From Promicromonosporaceae bacterium (GTDB lineage: Bacteria > Actinomycetota > Actinomycetes > Actinomycetales > Cellulomonadaceae): a stretch of DNA of 42,157 nt. The notes beneath the pieces were generated by a model. The model made no database searches and had not been told where the DNA came from. It saw only the letters and a list, made by a program, of their open reading frames with translations. Below are positions 6,925 through 40,825 of this stretch, in pieces. The position numbers and the translations under genes were made by a program. The first letter of the stretch is position 1. Each line of letters begins with the position of its first letter. Where the stretch lies: NCBI GenBank assembly GCA_009783295.1, contig WRHK01000033.1, positions 1-42,157 of the forward strand. The letters are read 5' to 3'.

Positions 6925-7788
6925 ATGCGCGGAATCATCCTGGCCGGCGGCTCCGGCACCCGGCTCCACCCGATCACCATGGGCGTGAGCAAGCAGCTCG
7001 TCCCGGTCTACGACAAGCCGATGATCTACTACCCGCTCTCGACGCTCATCGCGGCGGGGATCCGGGACATCCTGATCATCACCACCCCGCACGACGCGGA
7101 GCAGTTCCGCCGCCTGCTCGGTGACGGCTCGCAGTTCGGCGTCAACCTTGAGTTCACGGTACAGGCGGAGCCCAACGGGCTCGCGCAGGCGTTCGTGCTC
7201 GGCGCCGACTTCGTGGGCACCGACAACGCAGCCCTCGTCCTCGGCGACAACATCTTCTACGGCCCTGGCCTCGGCACCCGCCTCACCCGGTTCGCCGACA
7301 TCGACGGGGGCGCCGTGTTCGCCTACCACGTGTCCGACCCCACGGCCTACGGCGTCGTCGAGTTCGACGCCGACTTCAAGGCGGTCTCCCTCGAGGAGAA
7401 GCCGACGCAGCCCAAGTCGAACTACGCCGTGCCCGGCCTGTACTTCTACGACAACGACGTCGTGGAGATCGCCAAGAACCTCAAGCCCTCCGCGCGCGGC
7501 GAGTACGAGATCACCGACGTGAACCGCCACTACCTCGAGGCCGGCAAGCTCCAGGTCGAGGTGCTGCCGCGAGGCACCGCGTGGCTCGACACCGGCACGT
7601 TCGACTCGCTGCTCGAGGCGTCGGACTTCGTCCGCACCGTCGAGCACCGCCAGGGCCTCAAGATCGGCTCGCCGGAGGAGGTTGCGTGGCGCCGCGGCTT
7701 CCTGTCCGACGACGACCTGCGCGCCCGTGCGGAGGGGCTCGTCAAGTCGGGCTACGGCACGTACCTGCTGGGACTGCTCGACCACTGA
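6925..7788 (+). CDS. rmlA: Glucose-1-phosphate thymidylyltransferase RmlA
   Basis: RmlA joins dTTP and glucose-1-phosphate to give dTDP-glucose, the first and feedback-regulated step of dTDP-L-rhamnose synthesis in the cytosol. The 287-residue length is normal for the family. The nucleotidyltransferase motif GGSGTRL is at 8-14, the sugar-phosphate loop [11 protein letters not shown] at 23-33, the metal-binding VLGDNIFYG follows in the middle, and [20 protein letters not shown] marks the sugar-binding region. The ATG at 6925 is the natural start (MRGIILAGG); the long open frame upstream is noise. It lies 41 bases after the GT2 gene. rmlC and rmlD follow within 3 kb but are separated from it by a secreted-protein gene. 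rmlB is absent from the window. Confidence 0.97.
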
Positions 7789-7893: not shown

Positions 7894-8886
7894 GTGCATC
7901 ACCTGCACCGATTGCTTGCCGCGTCCGCGGCCGCCTGCGTCCTCGTCACCGTGACTTTCGCTTCACCGGCGCTCGCAGACGGACGCGAGGTGGGCGGCAC
8001 GGGACAGCAGTACTTCCTCAACGACGCGTGGAGCGGCACCGCGAACCGCTCGTTCGCCTATGGCCGTGACACCGACCGGGTGTACACCGGCGACTGGGAC
8101 GGAAACGGCACCAACACGCTCGCCGTGCGCCGCGCCAACCAGTACTTCCTGAGCAACTCGCTCGGCGGAGGGGCCGCGGACCAGACGCTCAGCTACGGAA
8201 ACCCCGGCGATGCGGTGCTGGTCGGCGACTGGGACGGAAAGGGCGGCGACACCCTCGCCGTGCGCCGCGGGAACCAGTACTTCCTGCGCAACAGCCTGAC
8301 CAGCGGTGCCGCCGACAAGGTCCTCGGCTACGGCAAGCCGGACGACACCGTGCTGGTCGGCGACTGGAACGGCGACGGCACCGACACCCTCGCCGTCCGC
8401 CGCGGAAACACCTACTACTTCAGCAACTCTCTCAACGGTGGAACGGCCGACGTCGTCCTGTCTTACGGCAAGCCGAGCGACCAGGTCGTCGTCGGCGACT
8501 GGGACGGCGACGGCAAGGACACCCTCACGGTGCGGCGCGGAAACGTCTACTACGTCAGCAACTCGCTCACCTCGAACACCGCCGCGCAACAGATCGCGTA
8601 CGGGAAGCCGACGGACACGGTGCTCGCCGGCGACTGGGACGGCGACGGCAAGGACACCCTCGGCGTGCGCCGTCCCGCGCCGACGCCCCCGCCGGCAGTG
8701 ACGCCCCCGCCGCCGACCAACCCGGGCAACCCGCCCCGGCCGATCTCCCCTGACCTCGACTGCAAGGACTTCGCCACGCAAGCCGAGGCGCAGGCCGCAT
8801 ACGACTACTGGATGGCCGCGACGGGCCGGGACGTCTACAACCTCGACGGAGACCACGACGGGCGGGTCTGCGAGACCCTCCCGTGA
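7894..8886 (+). CDS. Secreted five-repeat (FG-GAP/VCBS-like) protein with C-terminal excalibur domain
   Basis: The product is 330 residues from a GTG with AGGAG five bases upstream; 30 in-frame codons further upstream were left out for that reason. A signal peptide (basic start, hydrophobic stretch, SPALA cleavage site near residue 28) is followed by five tandem units of about 45 residues. Each unit contains YFL/YY, YG, VLVGDWDGDG and DTLAVRRGN. The DXDGDGXXD pattern resembles the calcium loops of FG-GAP beta-propellers. After a Pro/Thr linker comes an excalibur domain (LDCKDFATQAEAQAAY... then LDGDHDGRVCE), a calcium-binding module of actinobacterial surface proteins. No catalytic domain is visible. 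A wall-associated binding role is inference. Its end is seven bases from the convergent end of rmlD. Confidence 0.85.
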   Translation: MHHLHRLLAASAAACVLVTVTFASPALADGREVGGTGQQYFLNDAWSGTANRSFAYGRDTDRVYTGDWDGNGTNTLAVRRANQYFLSNSLGGGAADQTLSYGNPGDAVLVGDWDGKGGDTLAVRRGNQYFLRNSLTSGAADKVLGYGKPDDTVLVGDWNGDGTDTLAVRRGNTYYFSNSLNGGTADVVLSYGKPSDQVVVGDWDGDGKDTLTVRRGNVYYVSNSLTSNTAAQQIAYGKPTDTVLAGDWDGDGKDTLGVRRPAPTPPPAVTPPPPTNPGNPPRPISPDLDCKDFATQAEAQAAYDYWMAATGRDVYNLDGDHDGRVCETLP

Positions 8887-8893
8887 GCTGACA

Positions 8894-9778
8894 TCAGAGC
8901 CCGAGCACCGTCGGCGCCGCGAGCGACCAGCGCTCCGCCCAGTCGCCGATCGGCTCCACGCCCACTCCACGCAGGGCGTCGTGCCCCAGCACCGAGTAGC
9001 TGGGGCGCGGCGCCTTCGCCGCGAACGCGGCCGAGCTCACCGGGTCGACCCGGGCCTGGAGCCCCGCGGCCGTCATGATCGCCTTCGCGAAGCCGTTCCA
9101 GGTGACCTCGCCCTGCGAGGTGCCGTGGTAGATGCCAGACGGGGCGCCCGCGGCGACGAGCCGCACGATGAGGTCGGCGAGGTCCACGGTCCACGTCGGC
9201 TGGCCGAGCTGGTCGTCGACGACGGTGAGCACATCGCGCTCGCCGCCCAGCCGCGCCATGGTCTTGGGGAAGTTGGGACCGCCGGCGCCGTAGAGCCACG
9301 CCGTGCGGATCACGTAGTAGTCGGGAGTGTTGGCGCGGACAGCCCACTCCCCCGCAGCCTTGGTGCGGCCGTAGGCGCCGGCCGGCGCGACGGGGGCGTC
9401 CTCCTGGTACGGCGCGGTGGCGTGACCCTCGAACACGTAGTCCGTGGAGATCTGCACCAGCCGAGCGCCAGTGGCGGCAGCAGCGCGCGCCAGGTTCTGC
9501 GGCCCGACGGCGTTCACCATGAACGCGGCGGCCTCCTGGTCCTCCGCGGCGTCCACGGCGGTCCATGCGGCACAGTTGACGACGACGTCGTACCCCTGGA
9601 CTGCGGCGAGGGTGGCGTCGGCGTCGGTGATGTCGACGTGCACGCGGTCGACGCCGTCCACCTCGGCGCCAGCGGCGCGTGCGGCGGCGACCATGTCCTG
9701 GCCGAGCATGCCGTGCGCGCCGACGACGAGCCAGCGGCCGGACAGGGATGCGGTCTGGGGGTTCGCGGTGTCGGTCAC
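8894..9778 (-). CDS. rmlD: dTDP-4-dehydrorhamnose reductase RmlD
   Basis: RmlD makes the last step to dTDP-L-rhamnose, an NAD(P)H-dependent reduction of the 4-keto sugar. The 294-residue short-chain dehydrogenase has the Rossmann GAHGMLG at 20-26, STDYVF at 111-116 and the catalytic YGRTK with Tyr136 and Lys140. The GTG start (VTDTANPQTAS) was chosen because it lies seven bases after a -10 element TAGGAT and gives normal length; the open frame continues antisense through rmlC and is not coding there. It diverges from rmlC across a 51-base gap. The divergent pair is probably co-regulated through the symmetrical element at 9782-9791. Confidence 0.95.
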   Translation of the reverse strand: MTDTANPQTASLSGRWLVVGAHGMLGQDMVAAARAAGAEVDGVDRVHVDITDADATLAAVQGYDVVVNCAAWTAVDAAEDQEAAAFMVNAVGPQNLARAAAATGARLVQISTDYVFEGHATAPYQEDAPVAPAGAYGRTKAAGEWAVRANTPDYYVIRTAWLYGAGGPNFPKTMARLGGERDVLTVVDDQLGQPTWTVDLADLIVRLVAAGAPSGIYHGTSQGEVTWNGFAKAIMTAAGLQARVDPVSSAAFAAKAPRPSYSVLGHDALRGVGVEPIGDWAERWSLAAPTVLGL

Positions 9779-9781
9779 GCG

Positions 9782-9791
9782 TAGGATCCTA
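9782..9791. promoter_or_regulatory. Palindromic double -10 element TAGGATCCTA between rmlD and rmlC
   Basis: The 10-base palindrome reads TAGGAT on both strands. Leftward it ends seven bases before the rmlD GTG, predicting a leaderless rmlD mRNA. Rightward it predicts a start near 9794 and a leader of about 36 bases with GAGGAG before rmlC. No convincing -35 is visible on either side. Confidence 0.55.
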
Positions 9792-9829
9792 GAGCCTGCG
9801 ACCCTGCCCCCCAGAACGAGGAGCCCCCC

Positions 9830-10447
9830 GTGCAGATCCGCGAACTCCGTGTCCCCGGCGCCTTCGAGATCACCCCGAAGCAGTTCGGCGATCCGCGCGG
9901 CGTCTTCCTGGAGTGGTTCAAGGCCGCCGCCTTCGAGGAGGCCGTCGGGCACACGCTCGACCTCGCGCAGGCCAACTGCTCCGTCTCGAGCGCGGGCGTG
10001 GTGCGCGGCATCCACTTCGCGGACGTCCCCCCGGGCCAGGCCAAGTACGTCACCTGCCCCAAGGGCGCCGTGCTCGACGTCGTCGTCGACATCCGCGTCG
10101 GATCGCCGACGTTCGGCCAGTGGGACTCGGTGCTGCTCGACGACGTCGACCGTCGCGCGATCTACCTGGGCGAGGGCCTGGGGCACGCGTTCATGGCGCT
10201 CGAGGACGGCTCCACCGTGATGTACCTCTGCTCCACCGGCTACAACCCCACGGGCGAGCACGGCATCAACCCGCTCGACGAGCAGATCGGCCTCACCTGG
10301 CCGACCACGGACCGCCACGGCAACCCGATCACGCCGCTGCTGTCCGACAAAGACACCGCCGCCCCGACTCTTGCCGAGGCGCAGGAGCAGGGCCTGCTGC
10401 CCGACTACGAGCAGGTGCTCGCGTACACGCGCTCGCTCGCGAGGTAG
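9830..10447 (+). CDS. rmlC: dTDP-4-dehydrorhamnose 3,5-epimerase RmlC
   Basis: RmlC converts dTDP-4-keto-6-deoxy-glucose to the L-configured 4-keto-rhamnose. The 205-residue cupin has the family's active-site residues where they are known from the mycobacterial enzyme: His62 in VRGIHF, Lys72 in GQAKYV and Tyr132 in VMYLC. The N-terminal FGDPRGVFLEW is the usual substrate loop. The GTG start has GAGGAG (9818-9823) six bases upstream. It diverges from rmlD and is followed at once by the tail of a broken HNH gene on the other strand. It works in the cytosol with RmlA and RmlD to feed the rhamnosyltransferases of the locus. Confidence 0.96.
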   Translation: MQIRELRVPGAFEITPKQFGDPRGVFLEWFKAAAFEEAVGHTLDLAQANCSVSSAGVVRGIHFADVPPGQAKYVTCPKGAVLDVVVDIRVGSPTFGQWDSVLLDDVDRRAIYLGEGLGHAFMALEDGSTVMYLCSTGYNPTGEHGINPLDEQIGLTWPTTDRHGNPITPLLSDKDTAAPTLAEAQEQGLLPDYEQVLAYTRSLAR

Positions 10448-10451
10448 TGGC

Positions 10452-10740
10452 TCAGCAGCGGCCGAGCAGGTCGCGCATCGCGTTCTTCTCTGCCTGCGTC
10501 GCCCGCAGCTTGTAGGTGGCCTTCACCTCGACCTGCGGGGCGACGTAGTCGCACCGGAATGCAGTGTTCGGCGGCAGCCACCGGTCGGCGGCCCGTCGCT
10601 CTTGCCGGCGTTCGTGGGGCCGTCGACGGCACGCAGGTCGCCGGGGTCGTTGGCGAGCTGCTCACGGCGCGCGTCCGTCAAGGCGTTGGCGCCGTTCTTC
10701 CACGCGTCCGACGGCGCAAGAGGACGGGCGCGCACCCGCG
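10452..10740 (-). pseudogene. Remnant of an HNH endonuclease (DUF1524/GmrSD C-terminal-like), frameshifted and 5'-truncated
   Basis: Two consecutive minus-strand frames read as one conserved protein tail. The first, about 10735-10600, gives LAPSDAWKNGANALTDARRE and then QLANDPGDLRAVDGPTNAGK. The second, about 10600-10452, gives RAADRWLPPNTAFRCDYVAP, then QVEVKATYKLRATQAEKNAM and RDLLGRC before TGA. This is the C-terminal half of the secreted HNH family of actinobacteria as I remember it. One missing base near 10596 would explain the frame change. The DH-containing catalytic strand that should precede LAPSDAW is absent and no start codon fits, so the gene is dead, not just mis-sequenced. This stretch (10448-10776) otherwise holds no gene; a long plus-strand frame there is an artefact. 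Confidence 0.72.
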
Positions 10741-10776
10741 GGCGGCGTGGCGCAGGGTGACCTCAACGCCGACGGG

Positions 10777-12294
10777 TCAGCTACAGGACCAGTCGTAGTC
10801 CTGGCCCGACTGGATCGTGCCGACCACGTACTGGGTCATGACGATCGTGCCGCCGCCCGTCAGCGGGATCCCACCGCACGCGGCTTTGGCCGTCGCGATC
10901 GGCGCGACTCCGACCGGAATCCAGCTGGGCAGCCCGTACAACGGGCTCGTCGACGGGACGGTCCCGATGTGCTCAGAGAAGTGGCTGGGTGGCGCATAGA
11001 GCCCCACCGTGGCGCCGATCTTCTGGAAGTAGGCGGTCATGCCCTCGAGCGAGGCGCGGTTGAGCGCCTGGTAGTTGGCCGTCGTGCTCGTCAGGTACGT
11101 GAACGACGACTCGACGTCGAGCCACCACCGGTACGACCCGGGCGTCGTGACGTCGCGGCTGGTCGCGTCGTCGTAGGCGCGCGCGTAGCCGTACATCCAC
11201 GAGCAGGCCGCATCGACCGCGCCCGCGCACGTGCCGAGCGGGTTGCTCACGGCCGTCCCCGCCGGGTACTGGTTGCTTGCCGGCCACGACGTCGCCGCGG
11301 TGCCCGGGTTGCCGGTGGCCACGTACAGCTGCACCTTGGGCTGGACCGAGGTGCCGGCGGTCGCCTTTGCCCAGGCGATCTCGTCGGCCAGGTTCGGGTT
11401 GGTGCCGAGCGCGTTGCCCTTGTTCACCCCGACGATCCCGAAGGCCATCCCGCTGGGGTACGGCCCCGTCGCCTGGGGCCACGAGACGTCGGCGCCGGTG
11501 CGTAGCGAGTCGGGCGCGGTGGCGCGCCGCACGCCGAGGGTGTCGTTGCCGTCGCCGTTCCAGTCGCCCACCAGCACGATGTCGTCGGCCTTGCCGTACG
11601 CGAACGAGACGTCGGCCTGCCCGCCCGTCGTTCCGTTGGTCAGGAAGTACTGGCTGCCGCGGCGCACCCCGAGCGTGTCCTTGCCGTCGGCGTTCCAGTC
11701 GCCCACCAGCACCGTGTCGTCGGGCTTGCCGTAGGCGAAGCTGATGTCCGCCTGGCCCCCGGCGGTGCCGTTGGTCAGGAAGTACTGGCTGCCGCGGCGC
11801 ACGCCCAGCGTGTCCTTGCCGTCACCGTTCCAGTCGCCCACGAGGACGGTGTCGTCGGCCTTGCCGTACGCGAAGCTGATGTCCGCCTGACCGCCCGTCG
11901 TCCCGTTCGTCAGGAAGTACTGGTTCCCGCGGCGCACGCCCAGCGTGTCCTTGCCGTCACCGTTCCAGTCGCCCACCAGCACGACGTCGCCCGGCTTGCC
12001 GAAGGCGAAGCTGATGTCCGCCTGACCGCCCGTCGTCCCGTTCGTCAGGAAGTACTCGTTCCCGCGGCGCACGCCCAGCGTGTCCTTGCCGTCACCGTTC
12101 CAGTCGCCCACCAGCACGACGTCGTCGGCCTTGCCGTACGCGAACGTGATGTCCGCCTGGCCGCCCGTGGTGCCGTTGGTCAGGTAGTACCAGCTGCCCG
12201 GGCTGGCGGCCTCCGCCGGCTGTGCCGCGATCGTGGCGGTCAGCAGCACGGCGACCCCCGCGGCAACGACGGACGTGATTCGGCGCAAGAACAC
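10777..12294 (-). CDS. Secreted five-repeat protein with C-terminal GH25-like (lysozyme-type barrel) domain
   Basis: The 505-residue product starts at GTG with GGGGGG just upstream. A signal peptide (residues 1 to about 29, ending PAEAA) is followed by five nearly identical 45-residue units (YFLTNGTTGGQADISFAYGK, then VLVGDWNGDGKDTLGVRRG), covering roughly 33-258. The C-terminal 245 residues begin with GADVSWPQATGPYPSGMAFG and contain YRWWLDVES, with Asp and Glu two apart as in GH25 muramidases, then LEGMTAYFQKIGATVGLYAP and a final VMTQYVVG. I infer a GH25-related barrel; whether it cuts peptidoglycan is not shown. The opposite domain order (repeat first, enzyme last) from the amidase gene at 16022 shows the repeat is a portable module. 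It follows the GT4 gene on the same strand but has its own probable promoter. Confidence 0.82.
   Translation of the reverse strand: MFLRRITSVVAAGVAVLLTATIAAQPAEAASPGSWYYLTNGTTGGQADITFAYGKADDVVLVGDWNGDGKDTLGVRRGNEYFLTNGTTGGQADISFAFGKPGDVVLVGDWNGDGKDTLGVRRGNQYFLTNGTTGGQADISFAYGKADDTVLVGDWNGDGKDTLGVRRGSQYFLTNGTAGGQADISFAYGKPDDTVLVGDWNADGKDTLGVRRGSQYFLTNGTTGGQADVSFAYGKADDIVLVGDWNGDGNDTLGVRRATAPDSLRTGADVSWPQATGPYPSGMAFGIVGVNKGNALGTNPNLADEIAWAKATAGTSVQPKVQLYVATGNPGTAATSWPASNQYPAGTAVSNPLGTCAGAVDAACSWMYGYARAYDDATSRDVTTPGSYRWWLDVESSFTYLTSTTANYQALNRASLEGMTAYFQKIGATVGLYAPPSHFSEHIGTVPSTSPLYGLPSWIPVGVAPIATAKAACGGIPLTGGGTIVMTQYVVGTIQSGQDYDWSCS
11523..12192 (-). repeat. Tandem 135-bp repeat array inside the GH25-like protein gene
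   Basis: Five 45-codon units occur in tandem. The block GTGTCCTTGCCGTC recurs at about 11674, 11809, 11944 and 12079 with an exact 135-base period; a diverged copy is near 11540. The units starting at 11806 and 11941 differ at only about a dozen bases, so recent duplication or gene conversion is likely. Confidence 0.85.
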
Positions 12295-12306
12295 AGAAAC
12301 CCCCCT

Positions 12307-12340
12307 GGCCCGGGCTCGTCCTCGGGCCGCGGGAACCCTA
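12307..12340 (-). promoter_or_regulatory. Probable promoter and leader hairpin of the 10777-12294 gene
   Basis: On the minus strand TAGGGT (12340-12335) is a -10-like element. Transcription would start near 12328, exactly where an eight-pair hairpin begins (arms 12321-12328 and 12307-12314, one G-U pair, six-base loop). The hairpin could protect the mRNA or terminate the upstream GT4 transcript. No T-run follows it. Confidence 0.35.
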
Positions 12341-12368
12341 GCGGAACTTCATCCGCCGCAGGAACCCC

Positions 12369-13487
12369 TTAGCGGAGCGCATTCTCGTACGCGGTGACGT
12401 GCGCCTGGGCCGCGGCGGCCCAGGTGAAGCCGGCCGCGCGCTCGACAGCGGCCTCCGCGAGCACCGCCCGCCGCGGCGCGTCCTCGAGCAGCGCGCGCAG
12501 CTCGGTGGCGATCGAGGCGTCGTCGGTGCCGCAGTAGGCGACGGCGTCGCCGCCGACCTCGGGGAGCGACAGCTCACGCGTAGTGAGCACGGTGGCGCCG
12601 CAGGCCATGGCCTCCAGCACCGGCAGGCCGAACCCCTCGCCGAGGCTCGGGTAGGCGAGGATGCGGGCGCCCGCGAGGAAGCCTGGCAGGTCGTCGAGCG
12701 GCAGGTAGCCGGGGCGACGCACGGTGAGGTGGCCAGGCACGGCGGCGACCGCCGTGTCGATGGACTCGTCCCAGCCCTTGCCGCCGGCCAGCACCAGGGC
12801 CGGGGGCTGGTCGAGGCCTTCGCAGGCGCGGACCCAGGCGCGCACGAGCGCGGGAACGTTCTTGCGCGGCTCGAGCGTGCCGAGGAACCCGACATAGTCG
12901 GCGTCGCCGATGCCCAGGCTGGAGCGCACGCGGGCGGCGTCGGCGGCGGGGACGGCGTGGAAGCGGTCGTGGTCGACGCCGTGGTAGGCCACGTGGAACT
13001 TGTCCGGGTCTGCGCCGACCAGGCGCACCACCTCGTCGCGGGTCGCCATGCTCGGGGTGATCAGCCCGGCCGCACGGCTCGCTGCGACGCGGATCGCGTT
13101 GCGGAAGAACACGGCCTTGGAGCGCAGGTGCAGGTCGGGCGTGGTGAAGAACGTGGCGTCGTGCAGCGTCACCACGACGGGCACGCCCGCGGCCAGCGGC
13201 ATCGTGTAGTGCGGGCTGTGCACGACGTCGGGCCGCACGCGGCGCACCAGCGCGGGCAGGCCGGTCTGTTCCCAGGCCATGCGGCGCGGACGGCGCTCCA
13301 GCGCCGGCGGCACGGCGACGATCTCGGCGTGCGGAGCAAGCCCGGCGAACAGATCCTGGTCGCGGGACTGAGCAGCGATCGTCAGCCGCACCCCGGCGCG
13401 GTCGAGCTCGGGCACGAGCTCGTCGACGTAGCGGCCGACTCCGCCCCGGTCTGCGGGGACGGCAGTGGCGTCGAGCAGGACGTGCAC
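12369..13487 (-). CDS. GT4 glycosyltransferase
   Basis: A 372-residue GT-B enzyme: MHVLLDATAVPADRGGVGRY forms the N-terminal glycine-rich loop, HSPHYTMPL and VVTLHDATFF follow, GFLGTLEPRKNV starts the C-terminal Rossmann domain, and SLGEGFGLPVLEAMACG carries the EX7E nucleotide-sugar motif. Retaining glycosyltransferases of this family use GDP-, UDP- or ADP-sugars, and the donor cannot be read from sequence. The GTG start has GGAGG six bases upstream, and a -10-like TAGGGT lies at 13527-13522. It shares its layout and the EPRKN and EGFG motifs with the GT4 enzyme at 26515, so the two are likely paralogues. It stands alone, between two secreted-protein genes, and probably acts in the cytosol on the same polysaccharide. 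Confidence 0.9.
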   Translation of the reverse strand: MHVLLDATAVPADRGGVGRYVDELVPELDRAGVRLTIAAQSRDQDLFAGLAPHAEIVAVPPALERRPRRMAWEQTGLPALVRRVRPDVVHSPHYTMPLAAGVPVVVTLHDATFFTTPDLHLRSKAVFFRNAIRVAASRAAGLITPSMATRDEVVRLVGADPDKFHVAYHGVDHDRFHAVPAADAARVRSSLGIGDADYVGFLGTLEPRKNVPALVRAWVRACEGLDQPPALVLAGGKGWDESIDTAVAAVPGHLTVRRPGYLPLDDLPGFLAGARILAYPSLGEGFGLPVLEAMACGATVLTTRELSLPEVGGDAVAYCGTDDASIATELRALLEDAPRRAVLAEAAVERAAGFTWAAAAQAHVTAYENALR

Positions 13488-13573
13488 GAAGGACCTCCGG
13501 GGCGCGGGCGACAGGCCTCCGACCCTACAGCGCCAACCCGGCGTGGGACCTGCGGCCCATGAAGCGCCTCACC

Positions 13574-13579
13574 TACCGT
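13574..13579 (+). promoter_or_regulatory. -10-like element TACCGT
   Basis: TACCGT precedes the ATG at 13606 by 26 bases, with AAGGAG in between. The same hexamer, again followed by GA, lies at 33657-33662 before another exported protein, and on the minus strand at 19791-19786 before the gene at 18315. Confidence 0.35.
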
Positions 13580-13605
13580 GAAACCCTCGGTAAGGAGCCC
13601 GTCCC

Positions 13606-16011
13606 ATGCGCATGCGAACTCGTCGCCTGGGCGCCGCAGCCCTGGCGTCCGCACTCTTCGTCACGCTCCTGGGCGCGGCGGTGACCACGGACGTCGGCTC
13701 GGCGGCGACACCGATCACGGACTTCGACCCGGGCTACATCATCAGCGACGCGGTGATGTACGACTCCCGAAGCATGACGGAGGCGCAGATCGCGCAGTTC
13801 ATCGCGGCCCAGGGCGCAAGCTGCACGCCATCGGCGGGCAACACGTGCCTCAAGGACTATCGCGAGACGACGCCGACGCGGCCTGCCACGTCCCTGTGCA
13901 CCGGCACGTACACGGGGGCGGCCGACGAGACGGCGGCCGCGATCATCAGCAAGGTGGGTATCGCCTGCGGGATCAACCCCCAGGTGCTGCTGGTGACGCT
14001 CCAGAAGGAGCAGGGCCTGATCACGGCGACCGCGGGCAAGGCCCCGGCGACGTACGCGCGCGCCCTCGGCTTCGGCTGCCCCGACAACACTGGCGGTGTG
14101 TGCTCCGCCGAGTACGCGGGCTTCGCGAACCAGGTGTACTCGGCGGCCCAGCAGCTGCAGCGCTACGCGGCGAACCCCACCTCGTACGCGCACCGTGCCG
14201 GGGCGATCAACAACATCCGCTTCAGCCCCGACGCCTCCTGCGGGTCGTCGCCCGTGTTCATCCAGAACCAGGGCACGGCGTCGCTCTACAACTACACGCC
14301 GTACCAGCCGAACGCTGCCGCGCTCGCCGCGGGCACAGGCACGGGCGACGCGTGCTCGTCGTACGGCAACCGCAACTTCCACATCTACTTCAAGCAGTGG
14401 TTCGGCCTGCCGACGGGCAACCGCACGCCGTTCGGGCACGTCGACGCCGTGACGGCGTCCGGCCCTGGGGCCGTGACGGTCAGCGGGTGGGCCGTCGACC
14501 GCGACGCTGACTCGATCGACGTCCACGTGCGCATCAACGGGCAGCTCGCAGGGGCGCTGCCGGCCACCGCCCCGCGCTCCGACATCCAGCGCCTCTACGG
14601 CAAGGCCAGGTCGGGCTTCTCAGGGACGTTCGCGACCGCGGCAGGGCGGCAGGACGTGTGCGTCTACGCGATCAACAGTCCCGCCGGCGCCAACCCGCTG
14701 ATCGGCTGCTCCACCGTCACGGTCACCAATCAAGCCCCCCGCGGCAGCCTCGACGTCGTCACCGCGGGCTCCGGCACGATCTACGTAGCCGGATGGGCGT
14801 TCGACCCGGACACGACGGCGGCGATCCCCGTCCACGTCTACGTCGACGGCAAGGCGGCCGCTGCCGTCGGCGCGGCCGGCTCACGGCCCGACGTCGCGCG
14901 CGTCTACGGGCAGGGCGGTACGTCGGGGTTCTCCACGACCGTCGGAGCCACCAACGGCGCTCACCAGGTGTGCGTCTACGCGATCAACACCCCCGCGGGC
15001 CCGAACCCGATGCTCGGGTGCCGCAACGTCGCCGTCGCGAACGCGGCGCCGCGCGCCGCGCTCGACATCGTGAACGTCGCCAGCCCGCAGCAGGTGCAGG
15101 TTCGCGGGTGGGCGTTCGACACCGACTCTGCCCAGCCGATCTCCGTGCGCATCTCGGTCGACGGCGCCGCCGTCCGCACGGTCACGGCGAACGGGTCGCG
15201 GCCCGACGTCGCCCGCGTCTTCGGCGTGCGCGACACCACGGGCTACGACACGTCGATCGCGCTCACCGCGGGGAGCCGGCAGGTCTGCGTCGACTCCCTT
15301 GACGCCTCGACGGCCCTGCCCACCCGCGTGGGCTGCCGCACGGTGAGCGTGCCGAACACGCCGACGGTCGGGGCCGTCACCGACGCCACGCCCGACGTCT
15401 CGGGCAACGCCGCGCCGCAGGTCAGCGTCTCCGGCTGGGCCTGGGACTACGACGTGCCGCAGACTCCCGTGACCGTCCAGCTGACGGTCGACGGCGTCGC
15501 CGCCGGCACCACCACCGCCTCCGCCACCGTGTCGCCCGTCCCGGCCGGAGCGGGGCGCGCGCAGGTCGGCTGGTCGGCCAAGGTCGCAGCCTCACCGGGC
15601 ACGCGGAACGTCTGCGCCGTGGCCCTCGACCCGCCCGCAGGCACGCAGCGGCCCCTCGGCTGCATGCAGGTGGACGTCCCCAACCGCGTCCCCTTCGGCG
15701 CGCTGGACGCGGTGGCCGTGCAGACGTCCGGTACCACGAGCTCGGTGCGCGTGGCGGGCTGGGCCATCGACCCGGACTCCGCCACGTCCGTGGCGGTGCA
15801 CGTCTACGTCGACGGGAAGCTCGCGGGGACCGGCGTCGCCGACCTGGCCCGGCCCGACGTCGAGGCCGCCTACGGGCTGGGCGCCAACCGCGGGTTCGCG
15901 TTCTCGGTCCCGGTCGCGTCGGGGGCGTCGGAGGTGCGGGTGTACTTCATCAACATCCCGGCCGGCAGCAACCCGAACATCCTGTGGCCGTCCGCCATCA
16001 CCGTGCCCTGA
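13606..16011 (+). CDS. Secreted hemagglutinin-like protein with five Ig-like repeats
   Basis: The 801-residue product has AAGGAG eight bases before its ATG and a signal peptide (RTRRLG, hydrophobic stretch, cleavage near residue 34 after GSAA). Residues 35 to about 270 match a domain common in actinobacterial secreted proteins often labelled hemagglutinin: YIISDAVMYDSRSMTEAQI, then ACGINPQVLLVTLQKEQGLI, several cysteines, and YGNRNFHIYFKQWFGLP. The LQKEQGL segment recalls lysozyme-fold helices, but the activity is unknown. Residues from about 275 hold five units of about 95-105 residues with (V/A)GWAFDPDT, VHVYVDGK, SRPDVARVYG, GF and GCRxVxV. The same unit occurs once in the amidase at 16022. 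A wall-binding or adhesive role is inference. It ends 10 bases from the convergent amidase gene. Confidence 0.82.
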   Translation: MRMRTRRLGAAALASALFVTLLGAAVTTDVGSAATPITDFDPGYIISDAVMYDSRSMTEAQIAQFIAAQGASCTPSAGNTCLKDYRETTPTRPATSLCTGTYTGAADETAAAIISKVGIACGINPQVLLVTLQKEQGLITATAGKAPATYARALGFGCPDNTGGVCSAEYAGFANQVYSAAQQLQRYAANPTSYAHRAGAINNIRFSPDASCGSSPVFIQNQGTASLYNYTPYQPNAAALAAGTGTGDACSSYGNRNFHIYFKQWFGLPTGNRTPFGHVDAVTASGPGAVTVSGWAVDRDADSIDVHVRINGQLAGALPATAPRSDIQRLYGKARSGFSGTFATAAGRQDVCVYAINSPAGANPLIGCSTVTVTNQAPRGSLDVVTAGSGTIYVAGWAFDPDTTAAIPVHVYVDGKAAAAVGAAGSRPDVARVYGQGGTSGFSTTVGATNGAHQVCVYAINTPAGPNPMLGCRNVAVANAAPRAALDIVNVASPQQVQVRGWAFDTDSAQPISVRISVDGAAVRTVTANGSRPDVARVFGVRDTTGYDTSIALTAGSRQVCVDSLDASTALPTRVGCRTVSVPNTPTVGAVTDATPDVSGNAAPQVSVSGWAWDYDVPQTPVTVQLTVDGVAAGTTTASATVSPVPAGAGRAQVGWSAKVAASPGTRNVCAVALDPPAGTQRPLGCMQVDVPNRVPFGALDAVAVQTSGTTSSVRVAGWAIDPDSATSVAVHVYVDGKLAGTGVADLARPDVEAAYGLGANRGFAFSVPVASGASEVRVYFINIPAGSNPNILWPSAITVP

Positions 16012-16021
16012 CTGCTGATGC

Positions 16022-18169
16022 CTACGGGCGCCGGACGCCCAGCGTGTCCTTGCGGTCGCGGTTCCAGTCACCCACGAGCGTCGCGTCGGCCTCGCGCCCG
16101 TAGGTGAGCTCGAGCTCCGCCTTCCCGTCGGCGATGACGTTGCGCACGAAGTACGTCCGGTCGCGCCGCACCGCGAGGGTGTCCTTGCCGTCCCCGTCCC
16201 AGTCGCCCACGACGACAGCGTCCGTGTCCCGGCCGAAGAAGACCGTGCGGGACGGCGTGGACGCCGTGAGGTCGTCGAAGATCAGGTACTGGTTGCCGCG
16301 GCGGATCGCGAGGGTGTCCTTGCCGTCACCGTCCCAGTCGCCCACGACCACACGGTCCGTCTCCAGGCCGAACGTGAGGGTGCTGTCCGCGTTGCCTGCG
16401 GCGAGCGAGTTCTTGAAGTAGTAGACGTTGCCGCGGCGCACTGCCAAGGTGTCGACACCGTCGCCGTCCCAGTCCCCGACAAGGACATCGTCGTCGGGCC
16501 TGCCATAGGCGACCACCCGGCTCGCCGCACCGCCCAGCAGTTTGTCGTTGATGTGGTACAGGTGACCGCGGCGCACCGCGATCGTATCGACGCCGTCGCC
16601 GTCCCAGTCCCCGATCAGCACGCGGTCGTCCGCCCAGCCGTACGAGAACGTCGTGTTCGCGACCCCGGTCCACGCGTCGTTGAGGAAGTAGTCCTTGCCG
16701 CCGGCCAGCGAGACCTCGCGGCACCCGAGCGCGGCGTCCCCGCCGTTGGCGACCACCGCAGCGCATACGCGGTAGTCGCCCGGGTTGAGCGGCAGCGTGA
16801 CGTCGAAGCCCGTGCTCGCGCGGCCGGTTGCGGCTTGGACGTCGGGCCGGTTCTGGTTCGCCGCGACCGTCGCTCGGACCGCCCCATCGACGATCAGGCG
16901 CACCTGCGCGGGCGCCGTCGTGCTCCCGACCACGGCCCAGCCCGTGACCCGCACCGCCTGGGTCCCCACCGCAGTCGCGGCGTCCAGCGCACCGCCGGTC
17001 ATGACCCGCTGCCGCAACGCGGTCAGGTCGGCGTACAGGTACTGCCCCGGGCACGCCGTCGAGTCGACGTCACGGTGCCCGTGCACCGCAGGGACCACGC
17101 GGGCCGGCACGTTGCGGGAGGCGTTGCCAGCCGACGTGAGCGTCCCCGTCGCCGAGACGCCGTGGATCCCGAACTTCCACGCGATGACGGCGGCCGCGCC
17201 GTCGACCATCGCGGTGCTGGTCCGCGCCTCGTCGTAGTTGCCGAGGAACGAGACGCCGAACGCCACCCGGTTGGTGGGCACGGAGTGCGCGCCGACGATC
17301 GCCCGGTCGATCCCGCCCTTGCGTCCCTCCCAGACGCGACCCCACTTGTCGACCAGGAAGTTGTAGCCGATGTCCCCCCAGCCCAGCGTCTGAGCGTGGT
17401 ACGTGTAGATGCCCCGGATCACGGACGCCGTCTGGTCCTGCGTGTAGGCGTTCGTGCCTGCAGTGTGGTGCACCGTCACCCCGCGCACGACGCCCACCTG
17501 GGGCGTCCACGTCATCAGGCGCTCGTCGGCGCCCCACGCAGCCCGAGCGCGCACGGTCGGCTGCGGGGGGACGATCGCGGCCGAGGCCGCCACGGCGACC
17601 GGCGCGGGGCCGAGAGCGGTGCGGCCCGACCGCGACGCCGCTGCCCCCCGGTCGGCGAGCGCGGAGTCGGGCTCGGTGGTGATCACGCTCAGCACCGGGT
17701 CCTCCGGGAGCGCCGACGGCGAGGTCAGCCGGGCCTCGACCGCGTCGACGCGCACCGCGACGAACGGGGCGGTGCCCTCCCGCACCGACTCGCCGTCGGC
17801 GGCGTGCGGGGCGGCGTCGACGTCCTGCGCGGTCCACTCCGACCACTCGCCGCCGGCCTGGGTCCGCAGCTCGACGACGGTGTCCCCGGCGTCGCTCCCC
17901 GCGACCCACGTGACGCCCACGACCGACAGGCCGCGCAGGTCCGCCTGCGCGGAAAGGACGCGGGAACCTCCCGGGAGGATGCCGGGCAGGTCGGTGGTGA
18001 GCGCGGTGTCGTCGGTCTGCGGCTCGAGGAACTCCGCCTCCGGCTCCGTCAGCACGGTGACGCCAGGCTGGTCCTCTGCCGGCGTCGCTTCCAGGTGGGC
18101 CGCCGGGACCCCCGTCCAGACCAAGGCGGAAACCAGCCCTGCAGCGACCTGTCGTGCGTTCGCAACCAT
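16022..18169 (-). CDS. Secreted N-acetylmuramoyl-L-alanine amidase (PGRP/Amidase_2) with Ig-like domain and five-repeat module
   Basis: This 715-residue exported enzyme should cut the bond between muramic acid and the peptide stem. After a short signal region and an acidic N-terminal domain (about 35-200) comes the amidase: RAAWGADERL at about 208, VHHTAGTNAY with the zinc His near 234, GWGDIGYNFLVDKWGRVWEG, and HGHRDVDSTACPGQ with His365 and Cys373 eight apart, as in T7 lysozyme. Residues about 395-490 form one Ig-like unit of the kind repeated in the adjacent gene. Five 45-residue GDWDGDGKDTLAVRRG units close the protein. The ATG has GGGAG five bases upstream. The repeats could anchor the enzyme to a wall polysaccharide (inference). 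Confidence 0.92.
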   Translation of the reverse strand: MVANARQVAAGLVSALVWTGVPAAHLEATPAEDQPGVTVLTEPEAEFLEPQTDDTALTTDLPGILPGGSRVLSAQADLRGLSVVGVTWVAGSDAGDTVVELRTQAGGEWSEWTAQDVDAAPHAADGESVREGTAPFVAVRVDAVEARLTSPSALPEDPVLSVITTEPDSALADRGAAASRSGRTALGPAPVAVAASAAIVPPQPTVRARAAWGADERLMTWTPQVGVVRGVTVHHTAGTNAYTQDQTASVIRGIYTYHAQTLGWGDIGYNFLVDKWGRVWEGRKGGIDRAIVGAHSVPTNRVAFGVSFLGNYDEARTSTAMVDGAAAVIAWKFGIHGVSATGTLTSAGNASRNVPARVVPAVHGHRDVDSTACPGQYLYADLTALRQRVMTGGALDAATAVGTQAVRVTGWAVVGSTTAPAQVRLIVDGAVRATVAANQNRPDVQAATGRASTGFDVTLPLNPGDYRVCAAVVANGGDAALGCREVSLAGGKDYFLNDAWTGVANTTFSYGWADDRVLIGDWDGDGVDTIAVRRGHLYHINDKLLGGAASRVVAYGRPDDDVLVGDWDGDGVDTLAVRRGNVYYFKNSLAAGNADSTLTFGLETDRVVVGDWDGDGKDTLAIRRGNQYLIFDDLTASTPSRTVFFGRDTDAVVVGDWDGDGKDTLAVRRDRTYFVRNVIADGKAELELTYGREADATLVGDWNRDRKDTLGVRRP

Positions 18170-18248
18170 GAGGCTCCCTCGTCTCGTCGGCCGCGGGACG
18201 CCGCACGTGGCTCGGCACCGCGTCGCAGCAGGCTACCCAGGGGCAGGG

Positions 18249-18286
18249 AGGCGCCCGGGTCGTGTCGCCCTGTGACCCGGACGCCT
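18249..18286 (-). terminator. Hairpin terminator after the 18315-19742 gene
   Basis: The arms 18249-18261 and 18274-18286 can pair over 13 positions around a 12-base loop. The single mismatch becomes a G-U pair in the minus-strand transcript. It begins about 28 bases beyond the stop codon. No T-run follows, which is usual in high-GC actinobacteria. Confidence 0.55.
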
Positions 18287-18314
18287 CTCCGGCTGGCCCC
18301 TCGGGAGCGCCGGG

Positions 18315-19742
18315 TCAGCCCACCGTCCAGGTGCCGTCCGCGGTGATCTCGACGATCGACGGCCCGGCGCGCAACTGGGCGCGGCCCGTGAACGCTCCGA
18401 TCGCGTTGATCAGGTAGTTCGTTTCCACCCCGCTGCTCGACCCCGTGTACTGATGAACGATGAAGTTCGACTGGCCGTTATGGGTGAACGTCGCGATCTG
18501 AGAGACCCCGTCGTACTTGTAGACCCCTGGCCCCGATCCCAGTTGCGTGAGCTTAGGGATCGAACTGATGGGAGCAACCGTAAGAGACCATTGCCCGTCT
18601 GCCTGCACGTCAAGCACCTGGATCGGGTTCAGGAACGAGTACGCCTCAAGGCCGACGCCGACAGTGCCGCTGTAGCTGCCGATCTCGTTGACCGCGTAGC
18701 CGACCGTTTCCCCAGATATATCGTTCGCGTGCACGATGAAGTTGCTGCGACCGTTGTGCGTCGCCGTCAGCGCAAACGCGCGGACCGGCTCCGCGAGCAT
18801 GACGACGTCCCTTCCGACACCGGTGTAGGTACGGGTCGTGAACGTCCCGTAGGCCTGCGTGTACCAGTTGGGCGTGACAGGAGCCGCGGGGGCCGCAGGC
18901 CGCCTCACCCCCAGCGTGTCGGTTCCGTTCCCGTCCCAGTCGCCGGCGAGCACAGTGTCCGTGGCGCGCCCGTAGTCGAGCACCTTGTCCGCCTCGCCGG
19001 AACGGATCGCGTTGGCGATGAAGTACCGGTTCCCGCGCCGCACCGCGAGCGAGTCCCCGCCCACGCCGTCCCAGTTGCCGACCACGACGACGTCGTCCTG
19101 ACGACCGTAGGGAACTTGCTGGTCGGCAGGGCCCGCGCTCCACGAGTTCTTGATGTGGTAGGTACTCCCTCGGCGGACCGCGGGCGTGTCGGTGCCGTTG
19201 CCGTCCCAGTCGCCGACGAGGACGACGTCGTCGGCCCTGCCGTATCCGACGACCTTGTCGGCGGGGCCGGAGCTCCACGAGTTCTTGATGTGGTACTCGT
19301 TCCCACGGCGGACCGCAGGAGTGTCGGTGCCGTTCCCGTCCCAGTCGCCGACGAGGACGATGTCGTCAGGGCGCCCGTACGCGACCACCGTCTCGGCCGC
19401 CCCGCCGAACGAGTTCGACAGGTAGTACTGGTTGTCGCGACGGACGGCCAGGCTGTCGCCGCCCTTCCCGTCCCAGTTGCCGACGTAGACCTGGTCGTTG
19501 GCCTGCCCATAGGCGAACTCGCGGTTCGCCGTCGACGTCCACGCGTCGTTGAGGTAGTACATCGAGCCGCTGCCGCCGACGGGCCGCCCGTCCGCCGCGG
19601 CCGTAGCGCCAGCCGCGACGATCAGGCCCGTCCCGATCAGGGCCGCCGCGGTCAAGGACCCGACGACCCTTCCGCGCACGGGACGCGGTGCTCGCGCGTG
19701 ACACGTTGTGTCGACCTGGCGAAGGCGGCTGCTGTGGCGCAT
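18315..19742 (-). CDS. Secreted five-repeat protein with duplicated C-terminal beta-domain
   Basis: The 475-residue product starts at ATG with GGGAG five bases upstream; a much longer open frame running into the next genes is not coding. A long signal peptide ends near residue 50 (ATAAADG). Five 45-residue units follow, opening with MYYLNDAWTSTANREFAYG. The Asp-rich loop varies: units 1 and 4 read GNWDGKGGDS and GNWDGVGGDS, the others GDWDGNGTDT. The last 170 residues contain two copies of an unnamed unit (ALTATHNGRSNFIVHANDIS and ATFTHNGQSNFIVHQYTGSS, each leading to VNEIGSYSG or INAIGAFTG and then VLDVQADGQWSL or VEITADGTWTV). Similar units occur in streptomycete exported proteins. The DNA of this tail looks clearly less GC-rich than its surroundings. 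Function unknown. Confidence 0.82.
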   Translation of the reverse strand: MRHSSRLRQVDTTCHARAPRPVRGRVVGSLTAAALIGTGLIVAAGATAAADGRPVGGSGSMYYLNDAWTSTANREFAYGQANDQVYVGNWDGKGGDSLAVRRDNQYYLSNSFGGAAETVVAYGRPDDIVLVGDWDGNGTDTPAVRRGNEYHIKNSWSSGPADKVVGYGRADDVVLVGDWDGNGTDTPAVRRGSTYHIKNSWSAGPADQQVPYGRQDDVVVVGNWDGVGGDSLAVRRGNRYFIANAIRSGEADKVLDYGRATDTVLAGDWDGNGTDTLGVRRPAAPAAPVTPNWYTQAYGTFTTRTYTGVGRDVVMLAEPVRAFALTATHNGRSNFIVHANDISGETVGYAVNEIGSYSGTVGVGLEAYSFLNPIQVLDVQADGQWSLTVAPISSIPKLTQLGSGPGVYKYDGVSQIATFTHNGQSNFIVHQYTGSSSGVETNYLINAIGAFTGRAQLRAGPSIVEITADGTWTVG

Positions 19743-19915: not shown

Positions 19916-20857
19916 TCAGACGCCGAGCGTCTGCTCCGACCGGTGCCGCCCGGCAAGCACCTTCGACCCACCCGCCGCCAGCGCGGCGCCCAGCACGTCG
20001 AGCAGTGACATCACCACACGGGTGATCACGGCGAGTGCCAACGCGTCGCTGTTGGTCACGACGGTCGCGAGGATCACGACGAGAGCCGCCTCGCGAGGCC
20101 CGATGCCGCCGGGCGCAAACGCGATGACGCGCCCCACCGACCAGGCGAGCGCGTAGGCGCCGATGCCGAACCACACGAGGGTGCCGCCCGAGTAGCCGAG
20201 GCCGCGGATCAGCAACCACATCTGCAAGCCCCAGAAGATCCAGGACACGATGCACCACGCCGCCGATCGCAGCAGCGCGATGCCGTCGACCTCGACGTCG
20301 GCGAACGATGCAAAGCGCTTGTGGATCCGCGCGAGCCGACCCAGGCACCATTCGATCACTGCGGGCACGAGCATGAGCGTGCAGACCACCGCGACGGGGA
20401 TGAGCCACCAGTACGTGCTGATGCTGCCGCCCGCCAGGAAGATGCCCACGGTCCCGACGATCACGGCGGTCTCCAGCGAGATCACCATCGAGATGGTGGA
20501 GCCGAGCGCGCCGCGGGTGCGCGAGACGCCGTAGCGACGCATCAGCTGGACCTGCGCGACGACGGCCCACACGGACCCGGGCACGTACTTGCCGAGCTGG
20601 GACACCAGGAAGGTGTGGGTGGTGGGGCCCACCGGGATCAGGTGCGCCGTCGCGGCGACGGACTCGCGCCACGAGAGCATGCCGGTGAACACGGCAAGAG
20701 CACCCATCGAGCCGGCCGCGACGATGTCCCAGACGCCCATGCGGCCGACCGCGTCGACGAAGTCGCCCCACTGCCGCACGATGGCGACAGTCAGGAACAC
20801 GACCGCGCCCACCATGAAGAGGTAGGAGACGATCCGGCCGATCACCTTGGTGTTCAC
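19916..20857 (-). CDS. LPG-synthase-TM/flippase-like integral membrane protein
   Basis: The 313-residue protein has about seven or eight membrane helices and the two hallmark motifs of the lysylphosphatidylglycerol synthetase TM family (PF03706, including AglD- and MprF-like flippase domains): QLGKYVPGSVWAVVAQV and FAPGGIGPREAALV. Members lacking the soluble synthetase domain usually stand beside glycosyltransferases and are thought to move or modify lipid-linked sugars. Its GTG start overlaps the stop of the GT4 gene in GTGA, so it is the third, translationally coupled gene of the operon that starts at 22952. A small perfect hairpin (19917-19923 and 19927-19933) covers its stop codon. The likely role is translocating the product of its two partner enzymes (inference). 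Confidence 0.87.
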   Translation of the reverse strand: MNTKVIGRIVSYLFMVGAVVFLTVAIVRQWGDFVDAVGRMGVWDIVAAGSMGALAVFTGMLSWRESVAATAHLIPVGPTTHTFLVSQLGKYVPGSVWAVVAQVQLMRRYGVSRTRGALGSTISMVISLETAVIVGTVGIFLAGGSISTYWWLIPVAVVCTLMLVPAVIEWCLGRLARIHKRFASFADVEVDGIALLRSAAWCIVSWIFWGLQMWLLIRGLGYSGGTLVWFGIGAYALAWSVGRVIAFAPGGIGPREAALVVILATVVTNSDALALAVITRVVMSLLDVLGAALAAGGSKVLAGRHRSEQTLGV

Positions 20858-39817: not shown

Positions 39818-39874
39818 CGACGCGCTTCGTCCGTGTTCCGGGCGTGGCAGGCGAAGTGGAGGACGAAGCACGCC

Positions 39875-40825
39875 ATGACCGTGGAAACGCCCGATCGCGC
39901 CGCGCACCTCGCGGCGGAGCCGTTGCGCCCTGCGGGGCCGCGACGCGGCTTCGCCAGCGGGACGCTGGACTCGATCAAGGACCTGCTCGCGCACCGCGAG
40001 CTGCTCGGCATGCTCGTGCGCCGCGAGCTCAAGGCGCGGTACAAGGACAGCACGCTCGGCTTCATCTGGAGCCTCGGGCGGCCGCTGGCCATGCTCGCCA
40101 TCTACTACCTGGTGCTTGGCCAGTTCATGGGTGCGGCGCGGGGAACGCAGCAGTTCGCCGTCTTCATCTACGCCGGCCTGACGGCCTGGGGTTTCTACTC
40201 CGAGGCGATCATGGCGGGCACGGGCTCGATCATCGCCAACAGCGGCCTGGTCAAGAAGGTGTACCTGCCGCGCGAGATCTTCCCGCTCGCGTCGATCGGC
40301 TCCGCGCTGTTCAACTTCGCGGTGCAGCTCGTGATCCTGCTGCTCGCGACCGTGCTGGTGGGTCAGTTCCCCACGGGCTCGCGGTGGCTGTACTTCCTGC
40401 TCGCGGTGATCGTGCTGGTCGTCTACTCGACCGCGTTCGCGCTGGTCCTGGGCGCGGTGAACGTCTACCTGCGCGACGTCCAGTACCTGGTCGAGATCGC
40501 GATCATGATCCTCATGTGGGTCTCCCCCGTCGTGTACCGGTGGGACTTCGTCCAGGACACGCTGAACCGGGTCTGGCACAACAACGGGCTGGTGCACGCG
40601 GCGATGGAGGTCTACCTCGCCAACCCGGCCACGCTGGCCGTGCTCGGCTTCCAGAAGACCTTCTGGGTGGCCGGTGACACCGCGTACGGGGACATCCCGG
40701 CCGCCCCCGCCGTGCCGCACCTCATGGAGCGCATGGGCATCGCGATCGTGGTGGGCCTGCTGCTGCTTTGGGTGGCCCAGCGCGTGTTCGCCCGCCTGCA
40801 GGCCAACTTCGCCCAGGAGCTGTGA
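39875..40825 (+). CDS. wzm: ABC-2 type polysaccharide exporter permease (Wzm/TagG-like)
   Basis: The 316-residue permease pairs with the ATPase encoded next. Landmarks of the ABC-2 polysaccharide family are LLGMLVRRELKARYKDSTLG (about 41-60), FIWSLGRPLAMLAIYYLVLG as first helix, ANSGLVKKVYLPREIFPLAS in the gate region, LRDVQYLVEIAIMILMWVSP, and about six helices. Wzm/Wzt systems move a complete lipid-linked polysaccharide to the outer face before it is attached to the wall or membrane. ATG 39875 has GGAGG 11 bases upstream; GTG 39833 would add 14 residues. Its stop overlaps the wzt start by one base (TGATG). The gene diverges from the YfhO-fusion operon across a 176-base gap with a promoter-like site for each direction. 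Confidence 0.93.
   Translation: MTVETPDRAAHLAAEPLRPAGPRRGFASGTLDSIKDLLAHRELLGMLVRRELKARYKDSTLGFIWSLGRPLAMLAIYYLVLGQFMGAARGTQQFAVFIYAGLTAWGFYSEAIMAGTGSIIANSGLVKKVYLPREIFPLASIGSALFNFAVQLVILLLATVLVGQFPTGSRWLYFLLAVIVLVVYSTAFALVLGAVNVYLRDVQYLVEIAIMILMWVSPVVYRWDFVQDTLNRVWHNNGLVHAAMEVYLANPATLAVLGFQKTFWVAGDTAYGDIPAAPAVPHLMERMGIAIVVGLLLLWVAQRVFARLQANFAQEL

Follow-up and report, generated by a model that had tools for sequence, protein, structure and literature searches.

Four genes sharing a five-unit module

The window analysed here, that is, the whole 42,157-nucleotide stretch of contig WRHK01000033.1 from a Promicromonosporaceae bacterium (assembly GCA_009783295.1), carries four genes, A to D, whose products share a module of Asp-rich repeated units. 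The original prediction had placed exactly five 45-residue units in each of them. Its gene coordinates proved right, and we add the strands here (+, −, −, −). The genes and their arrays are as follows.

7894..8886, + strand: gene A, with an N terminus that looks signal-like by eye, a five-unit array, a Pro-rich linker and an Excalibur-like tail
7999..8676, + strand: array A, 5 units with spacings 45, 45, 45, 45
10777..12294, − strand: gene B, with an N terminus signal-like by eye, a five-unit array and a C-terminal domain without family match
11521..12198, − strand: array B, 5 very similar units (87% mean internal identity), spacings 45
16022..18169, − strand: gene C, with Amidase_2 (PGRP-type amidase), one GWA-type unit and a C-terminal five-unit array that runs up to the stop codon
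16025..16702, − strand: array C, 5 units, spacings 45
18315..19742, − strand: gene D, with an N terminus signal-like by eye, a five-unit array and a C-terminal duplicated domain without family match
18897..19571, − strand: array D, 5 units with spacings 44, 45, 45, 45

Each gene holds exactly five units of about 45 residues in one open frame. With the units anchored on the G[DN]W[DN] motif, the spacing is 45 in 15 of 16 cases and 44 once (18315-19742). A six-frame pattern search of the window recovered 20 units, all in genes A–D, and no others.

The partners named earlier for these arrays fared unevenly. The PGRP amidase of gene C is a solid Amidase_2 match (Pfam, E 8.8e-12), whereas the Excalibur tail of gene A scores below threshold (16.5 bits against a Pfam cut-off of 22), and the GH25-like identity suggested for the C-terminal domain of gene B is supported by neither Pfam (up to E 0.5) nor the PDB, where no credible match was obtained. 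For the duplicated domain of gene D, too, Pfam gave nothing up to E 0.5 and the PDB nothing credible. Array-plus-Excalibur tails resembling that of gene A are readable in several other genomes. The Pfam matches of gene B to OKR_DC_1 and NUP210 lie below cut-off and were judged artefacts of repeat composition; F420_cofC and the other top NCBIfam matches fall far below their own cut-offs. In the four window proteins, the module itself is matched by no Pfam or NCBIfam model above cut-off, so the carriers look like proteins with an empty end.

We trained a hidden Markov model of the unit on the nine arrays of the window's genome (45 units) and used it to scan every open frame in the window and in the gathered loci. 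Over 811 units, the Asp-rich loop is strongly kept (D30 98%, W31 99%, D/N32 99%, D/N34 95%, G35 86%, D37 97%, T/S38 99%), as are R42 (96%), R43 (99%), G20 (100%), D24 (99%) and G11 (92%). The loop had first been written as DXDGDGXXD; the pattern in these units is instead Dx[DN]x[DN]GxD[TS]. Calcium bound in this variant loop is plausible but putative. The observation that the last unit reads DTLGVRR followed by Pro or Ala holds in the four genes (P, A, P and P). It is not a terminal mark, however, because all five units of 10777-12294 read DTLGVRR and the genome's other five arrays deviate in part: the last unit is followed by V, V or S in three and reads DTVGLRR in one. In gene A and in many N-terminal arrays, a conserved stretch, approximately G-x-E-V-G-G-x-G, lies between the signal-like sequence and the first unit.

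Copy number, permutation and a probable ring

How constant is five? In the window's genome (3.98 Mb, 119 contigs), matches occur on two contigs only and form nine arrays, all of five units. Five of them are on contig C9 (L014 7453-12865, − strand, and L015 7393-10731, + strand) and the other four in the window, whose first base is base 1 of contig C33. Four of the five C9 arrays are followed by a C-terminal domain with the motif DGxYRVGxDIAPGTY...CGTW, possibly the Rv1352/Rv1906c domain. Among all loci, 202 deduplicated arrays were obtained, 195 of them uncut by a locus edge and 168 of these close to the model (best unit at least 55 bits). Including split ends, the total length is 4.75–5.25 units in 154 of the 168 close arrays, and eight of the other 14 have five on counting all pieces or on reading (L020, L021, L122, L132, L139, L188 and two in L138). 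In total, 162 of the 168 amount to five and none exceeds five; another (L163 3338-4303) enters masked bases.

One ranking of matched loci favoured arrays of at least five units, and another search used single units. Among 32 arrays of the first round that merely lay beside a matched one, 24 are five in whole phase, 4 are split fives, 1 is a five with a shortened hit, 2 have four units and 1 has one. Where mean identity between units is at least 70%, counted over all arrays on aligned units, 30 of 33 arrays have five and 3 have four. The number is thus nearly constant across genomes, in line with the original prediction.

We propose that the five units are five short blades (~45 residues) of a closed beta-propeller of the VCBS/FG-GAP superfamily. 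Each blade would comprise strand A (VLVGDW), the Asp loop as loop AB (DGDGxD), and strands B (TLAVRRG), C (YFLTN) and D (VTFAYG). In the window genes the chain would run from strand C to strand B; consequently, the last blade would be completed by the first, two strands plus two.

The ends of the arrays bear directly on this proposal. Most arrays start at unit position 1–4 and end at 42–45. Permuted arrays start near 33–37 (DTLAVRRGN) and end near 31–35 (...VLVGTW), with four whole units between, and a stop codon often follows ...VLVGTW within a residue. Arrays permuted in this way at A/B were found in L072, L053, L061 (two; the model extends one start to 23), L071, L114, L093 and L024; L158 ends at 27, and the start piece of L020 is visible only by reading. 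A phage protein in L122 is cut at a different site, starting with VLFDVPLVG and ending in ...MLFSYGR, and has five complete units. With the strands assigned as above, there are three break points: B/C (the usual one), A/B and D/A (L122). A ring predicts that the start can shift without changing the total; a rod makes no such prediction.

Furthermore, larger arrays point the same way. We considered 22 distant arrays from other classes of the phylum, a set that excludes the diverged viral arrays L197 (~six pieces) and L198 (~4.2 units). About five units (4.3–5.0) were measured in 17 of the 22 and about ten in 3 (L202, L225, L218). In L202 and L225, two genes of genome G599, unit 1 is closest to the sixth unit (57% vs at most 48%, and 55% vs at most 49%; for L225, the fifth row is unit 6, since units 4 and 5 were merged by the cutting pattern). 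In L218 (genome G297), which also has ten units, unit 1 is not most like unit 6. Judged by these comparisons, the ten-unit arrays are apparently five plus five.

Several observations weigh against so simple a picture. Four close arrays total four, all of them permuted (L156 3487-5556, L157 2978-5446, L097 3084-5816 and L117 7578-9110), and could represent a four-bladed form or a degenerate ring; two distant arrays, L208 and L210, also have about four. L108 has a single unit, which could be a real loss or a collapsed assembly. This single-unit version (L108 4932-5795, the same in L131) comes from an Agromyces draft genome, where a five-unit gene lies next to it. Among the 27 less close complete arrays, 17 measure 4.4–4.9, nine measure 1.9–4.2 and the viral L124 measures 5.6. 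These lengths come from the model alone, without individual reading, and the low ones arise partly because degenerate units escape the model; L124, which recurs as L197, may have six units. The raw covariation between units 5 and 1 is not raised, although we gave this test no weight, as it was dominated by homogenisation of equal positions and its corrected signal failed on held-out neighbouring units. Finally, the arrays are related by descent and Georgenia is over-represented, so the counts are not independent.

Could the five units form an open solenoid or an adhesin-like repeat rod, with the number kept by descent? In a comparison limited to arrays with five pieces, 387 of 725 units have as their nearest unit the one at the equivalent position in a different array, which indicates that blocks of five are often inherited whole, and the few arrays of four and the one of one also fit a rod. 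On the other hand, permuted arrays still have five, and no number above five is clear except ten, a very diverged viral array measuring 5.6. Arrays of high internal identity are overwhelmingly five, as given above, whereas VCBS repeats in one cyanobacterial group number 3, 4, 6 and 9 according to PMC9218822. The near-fixed number and the permutations together disfavour the rod, which we consider extremely improbable. A closed five-bladed ring, supported by the near-fixed five, the permutations and the five-plus-five tandems in spite of the few arrays of four, is very probably what these sequences encode.

Fold family and comparison with known propellers

The kinship with FG-GAP propellers proposed earlier appears as a consistent signal over diverse units but is sub-threshold in the window proteins. 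Three of the four proteins score 15.2, 12.3 and 10.5 bits against PF13517 (FG-GAP_3) and one gives no hit, where the gathering cut-off is 26.9, which counts against the assignment. However, of 26 diverse double units, 19 hit PF13517 with E<=10, the best at 1.2e-6, and no other family is hit by more than 2. The sole solved chain matched by the double-unit profile is 9oee_A, a secreted esterase (E 1.3e-5, four stretches). Gene A gave no hit in the PDB. The best PDB match of the nine-array profile, neocarzinostatin (E 0.0056), is not credible, and beta-lactamases follow from 0.13 up. A five-bladed VCBS/FG-GAP-type beta-propeller is the most likely fold on this evidence.

PMC8023676, from which the following descriptions of known propellers are taken, assigns to the VCBS supercluster an Asp loop in AB, GW in DA' and G/W in CD, with GW in DA' and W in CD not universal, and describes several VCBS/FG-GAP members as recognising carbohydrate. 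The module resembles the VCBS/FG-GAP kind (PVL lectin, integrin alpha) in its Asp-rich loop, which we place in AB by inference, in what would be repeated four-strand blades and in its occurrence in exported bacterial proteins. It differs in that its units have 45 residues, compared with 61 positions in the PF13517 model, and in that it keeps the Asp loop and a G at position 11 without the W motifs in DA' and CD: over the 811 units, no W is conserved at positions 19–26, and W reaches 5–6% at positions 8–9. The propellers of PVL, AUDH, TcB and integrin are seven-bladed, whereas the module would be five-bladed, like tachylectin-2; tachylectin-2 and the bacterial tachylectin-like propellers, however, have GW in DA' and no AB Asp loop, and the module shows the opposite pattern. 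It can be likened, by description only, to the VCBS actinolectins, exported actinobacterial propellers of which some are joined to another domain and whose function is unknown in that source. The module has many partners and occurs also on a phage contig.

Relative to the known VCBS kind, the new features would be the short blades, the variant Asp loop, a number of five or ten with few exceptions, three circular permutations and a broad use on exported and wall enzymes. We did not find a fixed-number, permuted family described in the literature searched, in which the motif GDWDGDG occurs in no paper and the term actinolectin only in PMC8023676; the family may nevertheless belong to the actinolectins or coincide with one of the 5BP1–5BP12 families considered below. 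It offers a clean natural experiment in protein evolution: the chain start has moved to three places and units are up to 87% alike, and yet the number of blades would, with few exceptions, be five or ten, unlike that of other VCBS repeats, which is reported to vary.

Partners, neighbourhood and possible ligand

What would such a ring do? We propose that it is a portable lectin-like anchor which, placed at either protein end, would hold an exported protein on a cell-wall glycopolymer. LysM, SH3b, CWB2 and choline-binding domains are wall-binding modules of peptidoglycan hydrolases and endolysins. The module is like them in being portable and terminal and in occurring on unrelated hydrolases and on a phage endolysin, but it would form a near-fixed propeller ring, unlike their extendable repeats.

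The family is patchy, being found in 14 of 59 relatives at 1e-6, in 32 of 248 genomes of the order at 1e-5 (single units) and in 18 of 396 genomes of the phylum at 1e-20, each tally including the window's own genome. Two genomes, G253 and G168, have 30 and 31 profile matches, 26 and 24 of them with E below 1e-60. Among 76 named loci, all but two are titled actinobacterial; the two are metagenome-assembled genomes titled Clostridiales and Lachnospiraceae, possibly misassigned, and one locus is a phage contig. A plasmid collection yielded four records that match at ~30% identity, of which two are named as FG-GAP-like proteins, and 50,697 phage records gave no match with either of two queries.

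The window, contig C9 and the named loci together contain 112 open reading frames (ORFs) with complete close arrays. In 67 of these the array is C-terminal, reaching to within 40 residues of the end, and it is N-terminal in 28, internal in 15 and alone in 2. This distribution bears on whether the module could be a metal-stabilised structural domain or spacer without a ligand of its own. The Asp loop is kept in nearly all units and the units of some arrays are very even, as a spacer of this kind would allow; however, the length of a spacer should vary, which makes the near-fixed number odd, and the predominantly C-terminal position fits an anchor better. We therefore hold a spacer to be improbable.

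For the partners, we searched 83 carriers against Pfam, namely genes A and B and 81 of the 112 ORFs, leaving out 22 ORFs of more than 1000 residues and nine others. Among the best 25 of 33 families, the partners are CAP (7), Amidase_2 (6), S8 (5), SpoIID (5), GH25 (5), Abhydrolase_10 (3), BNR_4 (3), a surface Ig domain (3), YkuD (2) and LGFP (2), with single matches to M23, NlpC/P60, ChW, alkaline phosphatase and a pullulanase domain. Excalibur was matched at 1e-5 in 2 of the 83. The best 25 of 38 NCBIfam families include alpha-L-rhamnosidase (3) and the Rv1352/Rv1906c domain (11 of 83), and among the 22 long ORFs, domains of the ThuA, GSDH, rhamnosidase, subtilase or 5'-nucleotidase kind were found in 5.

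A carrier of particular interest is the L122 phage protein, in which an endolysin family (phrog_1493 of PHROGs) matches residues 11–171 with E 4.7e-20 and the module forms the C terminus. The viral contig also encodes a ribonucleotide reductase, endonuclease VII, a portal and a head maturation protease. In genome G025, from the window's family (L024/L226), an A/B-permuted module follows a trypsin-like domain (E 9.3e-16), and nearby genes encode an ALF-repeat (E 4.8e-48)/pretoxin HINT protein and three further trypsin-like proteins, of which one has leucine-rich repeats. This locus resembles an umbrella-particle layout. It spans L226 7799-19899 (− strand) and also encodes a ~200-residue protein without Pfam match. 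According to PMC13274773, UmbA proteins combine a trypsin-like domain with a lectin, a wall polymer of the teichuronic-acid type is bound by the six-bladed UmbA4, and there are twelve five-bladed UmbA families, 5BP1–5BP12. The module would share with the UmbA lectins its five blades and its export, and the G025 member is likewise on a trypsin-like protein near an ALF-repeat protein, although Pfam finds no trypsin-like domain in the four window proteins.

The polysaccharide genes of the window are as follows.

6925..7788, + strand: rmlA-type nucleotidyltransferase, just upstream of gene A, the genome's only copy at E <= 1e-50
8930..9730, − strand: RmlD substrate-binding domain, the matched part of ORF 8894-10318
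9830..10447, + strand: RmlC-type dTDP-4-dehydrorhamnose 3,5-epimerase, between genes A and B
39833..40825, + strand: ABC2_membrane transporter (wzm-like) of a polysaccharide locus
40822..42024, + strand: ABC ATPase with a Wzt C-terminal domain

The order is thus rmlA, gene A, rmlD, rmlC, gene B. Within the 76 named loci (flanks up to 6 kb), the window's rmlA was matched in 10 (66–88% identity; L049 and L097 overlap) and its rmlD in 13. For wzt and wzm the counts are 7 and 3 of 76, several at low identity.

We then considered the position of rmlA in 14 chosen array-bearing genomes, some of which had already shown the neighbourhood and one of which, the window's own, had prompted the question. 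The gene is single at E 1e-50 in all 14, and an array lies within 10 kb of it in 9, where 0.62 would be expected if arrays were scattered (P 6e-11, with genomes taken as independent). The distance is at most 1.5 kb in 8 of the genomes and at most 0.3 kb in 6. By genus, the count is 7 of 11. Once the window's genome is left out, 8 of 13 genomes have an array near rmlA (0.57 expected, P 1e-9), or 6 of 10 (0.37 expected, P 1e-7) if each genus is represented by a single genome. The array numbers used are profile matches and overstated, which raised the expectation. These results indicate that the association with a polysaccharide locus recurs elsewhere. Of the pairing with rml or wzm/wzt genes in the original prediction, the rmlA part stands, and the wzm/wzt part is weak.

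Weighing against wall binding, many partners are other than wall enzymes (subtilases, pullulanase, alkaline phosphatase, alpha-L-rhamnosidase, ThuA/GSDH, 5'-nucleotidase), and the partner counts are raw, without a background rate for the families. The L122 endolysin matches nothing in Pfam at 1e-5. Five of the 14 genomes have no array near rmlA, G046 and G089 being clear negatives and G135, G170 and G231 having the two on different contigs. In the UmbA family itself, the five-bladed UmbA5 recognises its target species, but its polymer is not known (PMC13274773).

It is conceivable that the same closed ring has another ligand, such as a surface protein, a dietary or plant polysaccharide or a partner subunit. 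The pullulanase, alpha-L-rhamnosidase, GSDH and ThuA partners would suit this, and protein–protein interactions are mentioned for VCBS-like propellers too in PMC9218822. The repeated fusion to unrelated peptidoglycan hydrolase families, the phage endolysin and the rmlA neighbourhood argue against it, and we regard it as rather unlikely. Binding to a wall glycopolymer, to which the wall-hydrolase partners, the endolysin, the umbrella-like carrier and the rmlA neighbourhood point, seems to us the probable function. The reading as a whole, a five-bladed VCBS-type propeller that would anchor exported proteins to such a polymer, is likewise favoured, if not strongly. If the module is a wall lectin, it would explain the surface retention of many secreted actinobacterial enzymes and provide a tool to read wall glycopolymers.

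The further proposal that the neighbouring genes build the ligand is weaker than the binding itself, because five of the genome's nine arrays lie elsewhere. In the window, the ligand would perhaps be the polymer of the surrounding rml/glycosyltransferase/ABC-transporter cluster; that it is a local rhamnose polymer is possible but doubtful, and a rhamnose-containing polymer is the least certain step of the proposal. More speculatively, some actinobacteria (Georgenia, ~25 copies per genome) might use one family of freely permuted rings, nearly always of five or ten blades, to dock dozens of unrelated exported enzymes on their own rhamnose-containing wall polymer, and a phage endolysin and umbrella-type toxins might have borrowed the ring for recognising this polymer on targets of their own; we put this forward tentatively.

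Two further genes of the window were noted. At 13606-16011 (+ strand) lies a gene for a probably exported protein of 801 residues with no Pfam match above cut-off. By eye, its C-terminal part contains five GWAxDxD-type units of ~95 residues, and gene C has one of them too. Relatives of the N-terminal part, with best segments 50–67% identical, are present in L046, L048, L050 and L051, inside ORFs that end in a five-unit array. Just upstream of gene D, at 19916-20857 (− strand), is an LPG_synthase_TM-type membrane protein, with tblastn relatives in 5 of the 76 array loci.

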